Shown: piece by piece, positions 6,899 through 61,520 of the stretch | Layout: every line of letters starts with the position of its first letter | How positions within the stretch are numbered: the first letter of the stretch is position 1 | Origin: Haloferax litoreum | GTDB lineage: Archaea > Halobacteriota > Halobacteria > Halobacteriales > Haloferacaceae | DNA: 64,000 nt | Assembly (NCBI RefSeq): GCF_009674605.1 | Contig: NZ_WKJO01000001.1 | Coordinates: 2,666,001-2,730,000, forward strand | Direction: 5' to 3' | Made by a program: the position numbers and the translations under genes | Notes under the pieces: generated by a model | What the model was told of the DNA's origin: nothing | Databases searched by the model: none | The model's input: only the letters and a program-made list of their open reading frames with translations

Positions 6899-6915
6899 GT
6901 TGAGTCAAACTCACT
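6894..6915. terminator. hairpin between convergent genes, possible bidirectional terminator
   Basis: AGTGAGTT and AACTCACT are perfect 8-bp arms around a 6-nt loop. The hairpin contains the stop codons of both the membrane protein (+) and the VapC-like gene (-). There is no long T tract on either side, so its role in termination is inference from position. Confidence 0.35.
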
Positions 6916-7297
6916 CCTCGTCGGTCGGCTCCAGTGGAATTCTCGACACGTCTATGTCCTCGTAGTCTTTCTCTGACGAGAGTACGTCCATGCCTCGTGT
7001 CTCCGCTGTCGCGGCGTGGAACGCGTCGAACGGTGTCATCCCTTCGTCGTAGTAGTTGACGCCCTTCAGGACGATTTGTTTCTCTTCTTCGTCTTGGACA
7101 GGAACGAGTTCGAGCAAGTTCGCCACGAGTGGAACGAAGTCGAACTCGTAGCGTTCTCGGGCGAGGACGAGTTCGAGATACGAGAACGCCGACGTTTCGA
7201 CCTCGTACTCGTCGAGCGCTTCTTCTGCTGACCCCTGCAACCAATCTGAGTCTTTGGCGAGTGCGAGTAAGAAGTCCGTCTCGACGTACACCGTCAT
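6911..7297 (-). CDS. vapC: PIN-domain toxin, VapC-like
   Basis: 128 residues with a PIN fold pattern. The N-terminal acidic residue is in VETDFLLALAK, a conserved Glu in FSYLELVLAR, the central Asp in TPFDAFHAATAE, and the C-terminal acidic region is SSEKDYEDID. Known VapC toxins are Mg-dependent ribonucleases that cut tRNA or rRNA and are neutralised by the partner antitoxin. The start overlaps the upstream antitoxin stop codon (ATGA), the classic toxin-antitoxin layout. Confidence 0.88.
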   Translation of the reverse strand: MTVYVETDFLLALAKDSDWLQGSAEEALDEYEVETSAFSYLELVLARERYEFDFVPLVANLLELVPVQDEEEKQIVLKGVNYYDEGMTPFDAFHAATAETRGMDVLSSEKDYEDIDVSRIPLEPTDEE

Positions 7298-57723: not shown

Positions 57724-58311
57724 ATGAGTGCAGAACAGCCCATGGTGCTCATCGTCGAAGATGAGCCTGACCTCGCCGATCTGTACGCAACCTGGCTTAG
57801 GGACGACTATCGCGTTCGTGTCGCCTACGGCGGACGCGAGGCGCTCGACGAACTCGACGACGAGGTTGACGTTGTTCTCCTCGACCGTCGGATGCCCGAC
57901 CTCTCGGGCGACGAAGCGCTCACCGAGATTCGCAGTCGCGGCTTCGACTGCCGTGTCGCGATGGTGACTGCTGTCGAACCGGACTTCGACATCATCGCGA
58001 TGGGCTTCGACGATTACCTCGTCAAGCCCGTCTCTCGTGAGGCGCTGACCGAAACTGTCTCTAATCTCATCTTGCGAAACGCCTACGACGTCGGAATTCA
58101 AGACTTGTTCTCACTCGCCTCGAAGAAGGCCCTCCTGGAGGCTGAGAAGGATGAAGCGACGCTCGAAGACAACGAAGAGTACCAAGCCCTCACGGAACGA
58201 CTCGATGAACTCAGGGGCGAACTCGACGACACTCTCGGCCAACTCGACGAGAGCAAGGGGCTCTCTGCGGTCTACCGCGACATCGGCGACTCGGCACAGT
58301 CCGACGAATAA
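57724..58311 (+). CDS. HalX-type response regulator
   Basis: 195 residues. Receiver domain with the acidic pocket in LIVEDEPDLADLY, phospho-acceptor D54 in VLLDRRMPDL, T82 and K101 (DDYLVKPV), then the HalX helical domain (SKKALLEAEKDEATLEDNEEYQALTERLDELRGELDDTL). Acts by phosphorylation from a histidine kinase that is not in the window. 180 nt before the small CHAT-associated peptide gene. Confidence 0.92.
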   Translation: MSAEQPMVLIVEDEPDLADLYATWLRDDYRVRVAYGGREALDELDDEVDVVLLDRRMPDLSGDEALTEIRSRGFDCRVAMVTAVEPDFDIIAMGFDDYLVKPVSREALTETVSNLILRNAYDVGIQDLFSLASKKALLEAEKDEATLEDNEEYQALTERLDELRGELDDTLGQLDESKGLSAVYRDIGDSAQSDE

Positions 58312-58454
58312 CGGACACGCCGTCGCTCCGGGAACGTACTTTTCTCTCTCTGTTAACGGATTCGTGACGCACGGCGTCTGTCTCTGTCTTGTTCGGATTT
58401 CTTACATTAGTATTTCTGTTAATTAAGTTAATTTCATATCAGACATACACGAAA

Positions 58455-58464
58455 AATTATAATT
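58455..58464 (+). promoter_or_regulatory. AT-rich TATA-like box for the small peptide gene
   Basis: AAATTATAAT lies about 33 nt before the ATG at 58492, inside the AT-rich stretch 58400-58465, and predicts a leader of only a few bases. Confidence 0.5.
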
Positions 58465-58491
58465 CGCATCCACTCTTCGGACTACTTGCAC

Positions 58492-58632
58492 ATGTCCGAA
58501 GAGACCAACACGATGATCTCGTACCTCCGCAACAACCCCCGCATGATGGGCGTCCTGTTCACGCTCACCCTGCTTCTCACCCAGGCAGGGAACGCGGCAG
58601 CAGCGAACACGGGTGTCATCTACGGCCCGTAA
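58492..58632 (+). CDS. 46-residue hydrophobic small peptide (DUF7503-like)
   Basis: ATG at 58492 opens 46 codons. A polar, basic-ended N-terminus (MSEETNTMISYLRNNPRMM) is followed by a hydrophobic helix (GVLFTLTLLLTQAG) and a small-residue tail (NAAAANTGVIYGP) with a possible signal-peptidase-like AxA site. I recall such peptides as DUF7503. It ends one base before the stop codon of the CHAT gene on the other strand. Likely membrane-inserted or exported; function unknown. Confidence 0.75.
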   Translation: MSEETNTMISYLRNNPRMMGVLFTLTLLLTQAGNAAAANTGVIYGP

Positions 58633-60735
58633 TCACGCGAGAAAACTATCAGACCAGTAGACTTCGCTGTCGTAGACGACCGGTATCTCTTGTAGCGCGA
58701 GGAAGTCTTTAAGTTCGTCCTCTGTCACCTCGATGTTCGAGACGCCCGCAGACGACAGATAGTACCGCGAACCACCGGGGAGTGCTGGGATTATCAGCGA
58801 ACCGATTCCTGCCCTCGACGTATTGAATGCGTGGTACGAGAGTTCCAGTGGTCCATCGGTCGTTTCCGTCACCTCACAGTAGACCGCAACGCCACTCTCT
58901 GCCTGGACAACAGAGAGACTCCCGTCACCGACCACTCCGTACTGATGCGCGATGTCGCTGTCCGTTCTGACCACGTCGAGCGACGCTTGAAGCGGGAATC
59001 CACCATTGAGAAGTCTGGCGAGTGTCCGACCGACGCCGACTGCCTGACTGTTGATAACTTCGCTGAACGTGACGATGCCACCGATAGCGCCCGCTTCGAC
59101 GAGTGCGAGGCCCTGGTCGTAGGACTGACAGGCATTGAGGAAGAACGCGCCCGTCCCGACGTGGTCGAGCGTCTCTGCGTCGACTTTTCCATCGCGGCAC
59201 TGGAAGCCATCGTCGTCGATGTGGCCGATGTAGTGGAGGAAGTCTGTCGGTTCGGCGAGTATCTCTCGCAGTTCAGCCCGACTGAGATTGTAGTAGGCGT
59301 CGACGTCGAACGAGAGACCATCCCGCGACCCGTATACGTCGTCGACGATATCGCTTTCGGCGAGCATCTCCTGGTCGTTACAGACGACGGTGATTCCGAT
59401 GTCTCCCGTCGTCGGTTCCCGTTGGAGTCGGTTGCGGTAGGCCGCAGGCGTCGTCTTACTCGCACCGACAGGAGTCCCCTCGCTTATCCACGCCTGTTCG
59501 ACAGAGTTTGACGACTGGGGGCGAACGTACGTGTCGTTGGCAGTTGTCGTGCCTGCGCTCCTGACGATGTCGTCGCGGAGGAAGTCGTCGACTGCTGCGG
59601 TCTGTACTTCCGAGTGAGATACTTCGGTCCCAGACGGGGTCCGCACCACAGCGAGGTCGTTCGTGACGAATGGAAGTAGCTCGATGTTATCTGATTCCGG
59701 CGCGACGTGCGTCGTCAACTTCCACTCGGGGACGAGGTCAACGATGGAGTCGTATGGAACGTCGAAGTATGCCGCCAATCGTTCACTGAGCGACGCATCG
59801 TACAGACCTTCGATGTCGAGAGTCGTCCGTGACTCGACAGTCTGGCGTTCGTGGAGTTCGACGTCGTAGATTCCTTCGGTTCGGACCACACAGTCAAGGA
59901 AGAACGTCTGCTTCAGCGTGCGTGCAACGTTCTCTTCGAATCCGTGTGGGCCGTCGAACTCGTGTACGAATCCGGTTTCGGTGACGAGTCTCGGTGACTC
60001 ACTGGGGACGAGTTTCGCGCCGAGGTAGTACGCGAGTGGCGTCGCGACGAAGATGTGACGCAGTGTCGGAGGTAGTTCGATTCGGATACCCGTGTCAGGG
60101 ACCGTCAATCCGTCCGGAATGTGGAGTTCGTCACCAAGTTCGAGGAGCGGTGGGTGGCCGCGGAGGGTCGGGTACGAGCGCTCGACACTCGTCGTCTTGA
60201 GCGCCGAACTGAAGACAGAGACGGCACGCATCACGTCCAGTGGGTCGTCCGTCGTCGTAACTGTCGTCGCCGGACTCTCGTGGGATGACCGGGCGCCCAC
60301 CAAAACCTCCCGTGTATCTTCGAACGAGACGACGGTTTCGAGTGGTTCAGCATCGATGGATAGCGGCCCATCAACTTCGAGATAGGTTTTGACTCCACCG
60401 AAGAGTTCGAGACTGTAGGACCCAGCGCCGAATCGTTCGGCACCCTGTTGGTCGATTTGCGCAAGCATCGTCCCAGACGCGTCCCGCACACACACGACTG
60501 TGTTCGCGGTCAACGCGATACGATCCGTCTCGATTCGCACTGCGGCATCTGTCGGAAGCGAGAACTGAGTTCTGTCTGCCGGTTTCGGGGTGACCGACGA
60601 CGGCGTCCGTAAGAGGAACTGGTGTCGTTCGACGTTGTCACGAACGACCAGACCAGTCCCGTCTGAAGGGAGCGAAAAGCCGACCTCTAACGTCGAGGAC
60701 TCAGGGGACTCCTCGCTCTGCCCGGACTGTTCCAT
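58633..60735 (-). CDS. CHAT-domain (caspase-like) peptidase
   Basis: 700 residues. The C-terminal third carries the CHAT domain: a catalytic His in LHYIGHID (H505 most likely, H501 possible) and Cys in FFLNACQSYDQG (C536), followed by GIVTFSEVINSQAVGVGRTLARLLNGG. The family's usual Gly after the His is an Ile here. The first 440 residues are beta-rich and unlike known TPR or CHASE partners. It is likely a cysteine peptidase activated by a signal. Downstream of the DUF7504-like gene by 51 nt, tail-to-tail with the small peptide gene. Confidence 0.82.
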   Translation of the reverse strand: MEQSGQSEESPESSTLEVGFSLPSDGTGLVVRDNVERHQFLLRTPSSVTPKPADRTQFSLPTDAAVRIETDRIALTANTVVCVRDASGTMLAQIDQQGAERFGAGSYSLELFGGVKTYLEVDGPLSIDAEPLETVVSFEDTREVLVGARSSHESPATTVTTTDDPLDVMRAVSVFSSALKTTSVERSYPTLRGHPPLLELGDELHIPDGLTVPDTGIRIELPPTLRHIFVATPLAYYLGAKLVPSESPRLVTETGFVHEFDGPHGFEENVARTLKQTFFLDCVVRTEGIYDVELHERQTVESRTTLDIEGLYDASLSERLAAYFDVPYDSIVDLVPEWKLTTHVAPESDNIELLPFVTNDLAVVRTPSGTEVSHSEVQTAAVDDFLRDDIVRSAGTTTANDTYVRPQSSNSVEQAWISEGTPVGASKTTPAAYRNRLQREPTTGDIGITVVCNDQEMLAESDIVDDVYGSRDGLSFDVDAYYNLSRAELREILAEPTDFLHYIGHIDDDGFQCRDGKVDAETLDHVGTGAFFLNACQSYDQGLALVEAGAIGGIVTFSEVINSQAVGVGRTLARLLNGGFPLQASLDVVRTDSDIAHQYGVVGDGSLSVVQAESGVAVYCEVTETTDGPLELSYHAFNTSRAGIGSLIIPALPGGSRYYLSSAGVSNIEVTEDELKDFLALQEIPVVYDSEVYWSDSFLA

Positions 60736-60786
60736 TGTGTACTGATGACACGATTCGAGTTGAAAAACGTATTGGTGACCTGAAAT

Positions 60787-61491
60787 TCACGAATCGAGTG
60801 GGAACCACCCAGACGAGACGTCGATATCGAGGAGGTGCCACCGCTGCATCGCGTCGGTTCCGTGTACGTCGAGTTCGACGACGGCGTCGAACAACGGCGT
60901 GAGCATTCGGTTGAGTTCGTCGTCGCGGCCACCGGGTGACCAGACGTGTAGCATCCCCTTCCGCGAACGGACGTGGGTCGCCGTTACGTGAAGGAATCTG
61001 AACACCGTCTCACGGTCGTACTTCGAGAGGAGTGCTGGCAGGCAATCGAACGCGACACGGAGTTCGGCGGGCGACAGCATGTTCGCGAAGCTATCGAACT
61101 CCTGAATGTCGGTGGCGATTTCGGACCCGAGGCGGCCGACACCACCGCTCACTCGCCGCTCGTACCTCTGTTGGACTGGATCTGGCGTGTACGCCGTACT
61201 CGCTGCACTCCGTTCGAGCGTCGAGTATCGGATTACACGCGTCCACTCTGTTGAGCGACGAACCGCAGGGTCGAGACGAGCGTCGAGAGAAGCAGATTCG
61301 TTCAGGACGACGAGGCGACGACGGGGTTCTGTGGGGGCACCGAGCATCTGTTTCGAGGCCCGCGAATAGAGTTCCGTCGGGACAGAACCCACGACGAGGA
61401 GCGCACTTCCGCGTCGCTTGAGGTCGTCCAATCCCAGTTGGAATGCGGACGCTTCCTTCGCTGGTGCGTCCATGTCACCTCTCGACACCAT
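60787..61491 (-). CDS. DUF7504-like KaiC/RecA-related protein
   Basis: 234 residues from ATG at 61491, chosen because a TATA box lies 25 nt upstream (an ATG at 61473 is also possible). SALLVVGSVPTELYSRA stands where a P-loop would be but lacks GKT/S, so ATP binding is doubtful. The C-terminal part (RKGMLHVWSPGGRDDELNRMLTPLFDAVVELDV, RWHLLDIDVSSGWFPL) matches my memory of haloarchaeal DUF7504, a KaiC-like signalling fold. In an operon with the CHAT gene. Confidence 0.72.
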   Translation of the reverse strand: MVSRGDMDAPAKEASAFQLGLDDLKRRGSALLVVGSVPTELYSRASKQMLGAPTEPRRRLVVLNESASLDARLDPAVRRSTEWTRVIRYSTLERSAASTAYTPDPVQQRYERRVSGGVGRLGSEIATDIQEFDSFANMLSPAELRVAFDCLPALLSKYDRETVFRFLHVTATHVRSRKGMLHVWSPGGRDDELNRMLTPLFDAVVELDVHGTDAMQRWHLLDIDVSSGWFPLDS

Positions 61492-61510
61492 TCGTCTTGG
61501 ACGACGAAAC

Positions 61511-61520
61511 CATATTTAAT
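61511..61520 (-). promoter_or_regulatory. TATA-like box for the DUF7504-CHAT operon
   Basis: Minus-strand ATTAAATATG is centred 25 nt before the ATG at 61491, giving a leaderless transcript starting at or near that codon and covering the CHAT gene. Confidence 0.55.

Follow-up and report, generated by a model that had tools for sequence, protein, structure and literature searches.

The question raised by this locus of Haloferax litoreum is whether a CHAT-like protein, a 46-residue peptide encoded against it on the opposite strand and a DUF7504 protein encoded upstream of it belong together, and what they may do. The window referred to below is the whole stretch of 64,000 nucleotides that was analysed (contig NZ_WKJO01000001.1, positions 2,666,001 to 2,730,000). 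A first-pass annotation had described the three genes as a compact cassette, and all three open reading frames are present where it had placed them, with the stop codon TAA of the peptide gene (58630-58632) abutting the stop codon of the CHAT-like gene (58633-58635) with zero gap. The genes are as follows.

58492-58632, plus strand: peptide gene (DUF7503), 46 residues, with an acidic N-terminus, NPR, a hydrophobic segment, QAGxxAA, a variable tail and a C-terminal GP
58633-60735, minus strand: gene of the CHAT-like protein, 700 residues
60787-61491, minus strand: DUF7504 gene, 234 residues, 51 bp upstream of the CHAT-like gene

The CHAT-like protein carries an N-terminal beta domain. It has no match in Pfam or NCBIfam at E-values up to 1 and is therefore not filed in the curated Pfam CHAT family; at the sequence level neither the protein itself nor the family profile gave a significant hit in the PDB, and matches were obtained from the fold search alone. 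The AlphaFold2 model (pLDDT 88.8, pTM 0.90, 99 aligned sequences) has separase (E-value 3e-7), SAVED-CHAT (4e-6) and gingipain R (1e-5) as its best PDB matches in Foldseek, with Csx29 (1e-4) and, more weakly, caspase-11 as further matches. By fold the protein is confidently modelled as a cysteine protease of clan CD (CHAT/separase-like), with the caspase-hemoglobinase fold. The predicted catalytic residues are encoded at the following positions.

59221-59223, minus strand: codon of the catalytic His505, in the context LHYIGH505
59128-59130, minus strand: codon of the catalytic Cys536, in the context LNAC536QS

In the model these residues directly follow the strands 497-503 and 528-534 respectively, the dyad being placed on successive strands. 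Among the 125 unique homologous proteins that constitute the family set for the dyad counts, each of the two residues is kept in 118. The caspase-like active site proposed earlier for this protein is borne out by the modelled fold and by the retention of the His/Cys pair in the relatives. Two plasmid-borne relatives are named 'CHAT domain-containing' and 'caspase family protein' by NCBI, nearly all others being 'hypothetical'. A search of viral contigs for relatives of the family found none.

Seven family members devoid of the dyad (L127, L128, L139, L148, L158, L160 and L184), six of which form one clade, are possibly pseudo-proteases, as judged from their sequences; none of them is accompanied by the peptide. 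A divergent branch (L187, L195, L200, L205, L207, L210, L213, L214 and L218), in part of which the peptide is absent, often has folD and an opposite-strand gene of about 420 codons close by. Relatives with CN[DE]xxM motifs have also been identified in four genomes of the same phylum outside Halobacteriales (L222-L225), the active-site motifs being kept in three and changed in L224.

The association of the protease gene with the peptide gene has been surveyed in 59 haloarchaeal genomes, which contain 108 copies of the CHAT family and 59 DUF7503 genes. Every one of the 59 DUF7503 genes is convergent, tail to tail, with a CHAT gene, and 7-288 bp separate the matched segments. In further genomes the same order is seen for 39 of 41; in one of the two exceptions the DUF7503 and CHAT genes have the same orientation at a distance of 1.4 kb, and the contig of the other is without a scored CHAT copy. 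The overall figure of 98/100 haloarchaeal DUF7503 genes is far above chance, and the co-occurrence of the small peptide with the CHAT family, which the first-pass annotation had expected, is thus established in both sets. Matches to DUF7503 were found in Halobacteriales only. The tail-to-tail order most likely reflects the inheritance of an ancestral cassette. The gaps between the CHAT and peptide genes range from about -20 to +260, a variability that argues against antisense control.

Divergent CHAT copies without a Pfam-matched peptide have divergent peptides in the same position and of the same build, namely a basic residue, usually after Pro, followed by a hydrophobic segment, small residues and a longer variable tail with Gly-Pro at or near the end. 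When Pfam-matched and divergent peptides are taken together, a peptide is found beside 94 of the 118 dyad-bearing copies vs none of the 7 dyad-less copies, a contrast that rests on few events, since the tree has only two changes of the dyad. Rescanning of the peptide-less loci with relaxed patterns has revealed no hidden peptide, which leaves 24 dyad-bearing copies without a recognisable one, and no such peptide is seen beside the relatives in the four genomes outside the order. These observations suggest that the protease can work without the peptide. The gene order makes it well supported that the putative protease and its cognate membrane peptide constitute a genetic unit.

In two loci the place of the peptide is occupied by an unrelated sequence: a small Cys-containing open reading frame that ends in GP and has no clear helix (L051:7200-7350), and a 63-residue peptide that ends in KKAP (L192:4250-4450). 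In genome G142 two tandem DUF7503 copies with identical peptide sequence lie beside one CHAT gene (L226:4023-4300).

The 46-residue peptide is a member of the Pfam family PF24335/DUF7503 (E-value 4.6e-21, 74.6 bits against a cut-off of 27), and the divergent peptides lie beyond the profile of this family. Two dipeptides are conserved in it.

58537-58542, plus strand: codons of Pro16-Arg17, the P[RK] just ahead of the hydrophobic segment, a guessed cleavage site
58624-58629, plus strand: codons of the C-terminal Gly-Pro

Of 87 unique peptides, 79 have P[RK] ahead of the hydrophobic segment; Lys or Arg is absent after this segment in 78 of 84, and the stretch between the basic residue and the C-terminus comprises 28-30 residues in most. 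Gly-Pro forms the exact end of 71 of the 76 unique HMM-matched peptides. It is encoded in 14 different combinations of codons and followed by any of the three stop codons, which indicates a constraint on the amino acids and not a DNA signal. Thirteen Haloferax sequences give an overall pN/pS of 0.28, that is, purifying selection, with 0.22 for the NPR and hydrophobic parts, 0.09 for QAGxxAA, 0.60 for the six-residue tail and 0.00 for Gly-Pro. On the evidence of its sequence the peptide open reading frame is a real gene. A candidate promoter has been located upstream of it.

58436-58463, plus strand: ATATCAGA (58436-58443), then a BRE/TATA-like GAAAAATTATAAT (58451-58463), about 29 bases 5' of the ATG

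The upstream element is conserved in Haloferax, Halobellus and Halogeometricum, and ATATCAGA together with the BRE/TATA-like stretch would serve as the promoter of the peptide gene. The pattern ATATCAGA-N5-9-GAAAA has a single occurrence in the whole genome, at this locus and with a spacing of N7, and a whole-genome search for a wider regulon of the ATATCAGA-GAAAA element showed none. The ATATCAGA-N7-GAAAA element may possibly have a dedicated regulator.

The protein encoded upstream of the protease belongs to the Pfam family PF24336/DUF7504 (E-value 4.6e-53, 180.8 bits against a cut-off of 27). Its AlphaFold2 model (pLDDT 89.9) matches the KaiC CI domain in Foldseek (E-value 5e-9). No GK[ST] of a Walker A P-loop is present in the sequence or in the consensus of the CHAT-linked family, and the CHAT-linked DUF7504 proteins are therefore likely to have no ATPase activity. 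The earlier description of a KaiC-like protein with a degenerate P-loop agrees with these results. Of the 125 CHAT loci, 45 have a DUF7504 gene immediately upstream in the same orientation; outside Haloferax the figure is 30 of 110. A genome contains about six DUF7504 genes, for which we estimate an adjacency by chance of roughly 0.1%, so that the link between the two genes is real; its presence in 45 loci only, together with at least 12 changes on the tree, marks DUF7504 as an optional accessory. Of the sensor role first proposed for this protein, the upstream linkage stands, and the role itself is weakened by this optional occurrence. DUF7504 is most likely an accessory regulator.

The reading that we favour, tentatively and with slightly less than an even chance of being right, is that the small peptide is the membrane substrate or partner of the protease, in a module of two genes and an optional third. 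The CHAT/separase-like protein would be a cytosolic cysteine protease, and the peptide would be inserted in the membrane with its N-terminus inside, one hydrophobic helix and a short uncharged tail outside, an orientation that we infer from the positive-inside rule. When switched on, for which DUF7504 with its KaiC-like fold would be responsible in some lineages, the protease would act on the peptide from the cytosolic side, and the likeliest site is the conserved P-[RK] beside the helix. The state of the membrane peptide would thereby be changed; for example, the freed helix of 28-30 residues could oligomerise and depolarise the membrane, and the outcome could be a stress or growth-arrest switch. 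The module draws support from the predicted clan CD fold, the pairing of the genes, the conservation of the dyad, the lack of the peptide beside dyad-less copies, the shared motifs of the peptides, the purifying selection, the peptide's own upstream element and the frequent upstream position of the KaiC-fold DUF7504. The conservation of the hydrophobic segment suggests that the helix itself does something, and the peptide may be a pore-forming effector. Against the mechanism, a helix followed by AxA-like residues fits a secretion signal as well.

The choice of P-[RK] as cleavage site is a guess from the sequence. Asp454 was considered as an acidic S1 residue reading P[RK] and was rejected, as loss of the acid at 454 is accompanied by the disappearance of neither the peptide nor P[RK]; not tracking P[RK], it lends no independent support to the guess. 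Ser150 in the N-terminal domain co-occurs with the peptide (78/80 vs 12/24), this column being the best of many; in tree-independent pairs the association gives a p of about 0.06 in a sign test and is a lead only.

The same features of the peptide can be read differently. P[RK] as n-region, the hydrophobic core and the small-residue AxA-like region would suit a secreted signal, in which a cut after the AxA-like motif frees a variable GP-ended tail as a pheromone or for self-recognition, with the CHAT protein as receptor or processing factor. The variability of the tail beside a fixed GP, the different tails of paralogues within one genome and the long hydrophilic tails of some divergent peptides are in keeping with such a signal. 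The hydrophobic segment and QAGxxAA are, however, conserved beyond the needs of a signal sequence, and the Pfam scan of the CHAT-like protein showed no TPR domain such as known peptide receptors have; we consider this explanation unlikely, although foremost among the rivals. Ranked after it, and also improbable, is a role of the peptide as a membrane anchor or inhibitor that stays uncut and tethers the CHAT protein or blocks it as a pseudosubstrate, in the manner of securin and separase. Separase is indeed the best fold match of the model, and the peptide is retained solely beside catalytically intact copies; yet 24 dyad-bearing copies manage without it, and the cytosolic part of most peptides, about 15 residues, offers little for an inhibitor.

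The Gly-Pro endings recall known Gly-Pro stalling motifs, and the terminal GP of 71 of 76 peptides could accordingly belong to a regulatory arrest peptide, the ribosome stalling at Gly-Pro-stop and controlling the convergent operon. This we regard as very improbable: the location on opposite strands with such varying gaps denies such a peptide a fixed target in cis, a ribosome at the stop would still hold the hydrophobic helix in its tunnel, and all three stop codons are used. A wider form of the membrane-substrate reading would see in the cassette a system of regulated cell death or self-recognition peculiar to haloarchaea: the caspase-fold protease would act on its own single-helix membrane peptide, which has a variable external tail, and would supply the long-sought archaeal caspase activity. 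This form is doubtful, about as much so as the anchor or inhibitor.

The relation of the cassette to known systems is one of partial likeness. The CHAT-like protein shares with separase, SAVED-CHAT and Csx29 (Craspase) the caspase-hemoglobinase fold and His/Cys in LHYxGH and LNACxS contexts. Unlike the CHAT/separase peptidases it lacks a Pfam or NCBIfam match and a TPR, SAVED or CRISPR partner, and it has the N-terminal beta domain and, frequently, a membrane-peptide partner. With respect to Craspase, no TPR has been found in the Pfam scan or in the model, and the neighbours include no Cas7-11. DUF7504 shares the KaiC CI fold with the KaiC/RecA-like ATPases and differs from them by the missing Walker A in its CHAT-linked members. 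As in bacterial systems of a caspase-like protease and a gasdermin-type effector, the protease gene lies beside a membrane-active candidate. In those systems the partner is a pore-forming protein, whereas here it is a 46-residue single-helix DUF7503 peptide, so that the cassette is not of the gasdermin type, and the genes are convergent. Unlike the patchy gasdermin-type systems, the CHAT gene is present as a single copy in all 15 Haloferax genomes searched; the PADLOC models gave zero matches to all three cassette proteins. For RRNPP-type quorum sensing, a TPR receptor is absent in the Pfam scan and the peptide is precursor-like by composition only. A literature search, with subscription journals and preprints mostly outside its scope, found no paper naming DUF7503, DUF7504 or a CHAT domain in haloarchaea.

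A strong and specific caspase-like activity linked to salt stress has been described in Haloferax volcanii by Seth-Pasricha et al. (PMC3615174). The activity shows Asp specificity (LEVD) and lacks an assigned gene; the authors, who state that archaea lack caspase homologues and raise the proteasome as a source of the activity, call for identification of the protein. The CHAT protein, encoded once in each Haloferax genome searched and combining the caspase fold with an intact dyad, is a direct candidate for this activity, and DUF7503 and DUF7504 are both present in the H. volcanii control genome. In view of the varied specificities of clan CD and of the proteasome as an alternative, the CHAT family is a candidate gene and no more. 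The pairing with CHAT gives the functionally undescribed DUF7503 and DUF7504 a shared context, and the DUF7503 peptide is an immediate substrate candidate for the protease. Should the peptide undergo cleavage or prove active on the membrane, the cassette would represent an archaeal counterpart of protease-gated membrane effectors.

The neighbours of the cassette include, besides DUF7504, a HalX regulator, TrmB and Usp. The gene of the HalX response regulator (57724-58311) adjoins the peptide gene, a position kept in Halobellus and Halogeometricum; guaB and an aminotransferase gene are also close to this region. Elsewhere in the window, a short open reading frame in a low-G+C stretch (6911-7297) resembles, as judged by eye, a PIN-domain protein of the VapC type.
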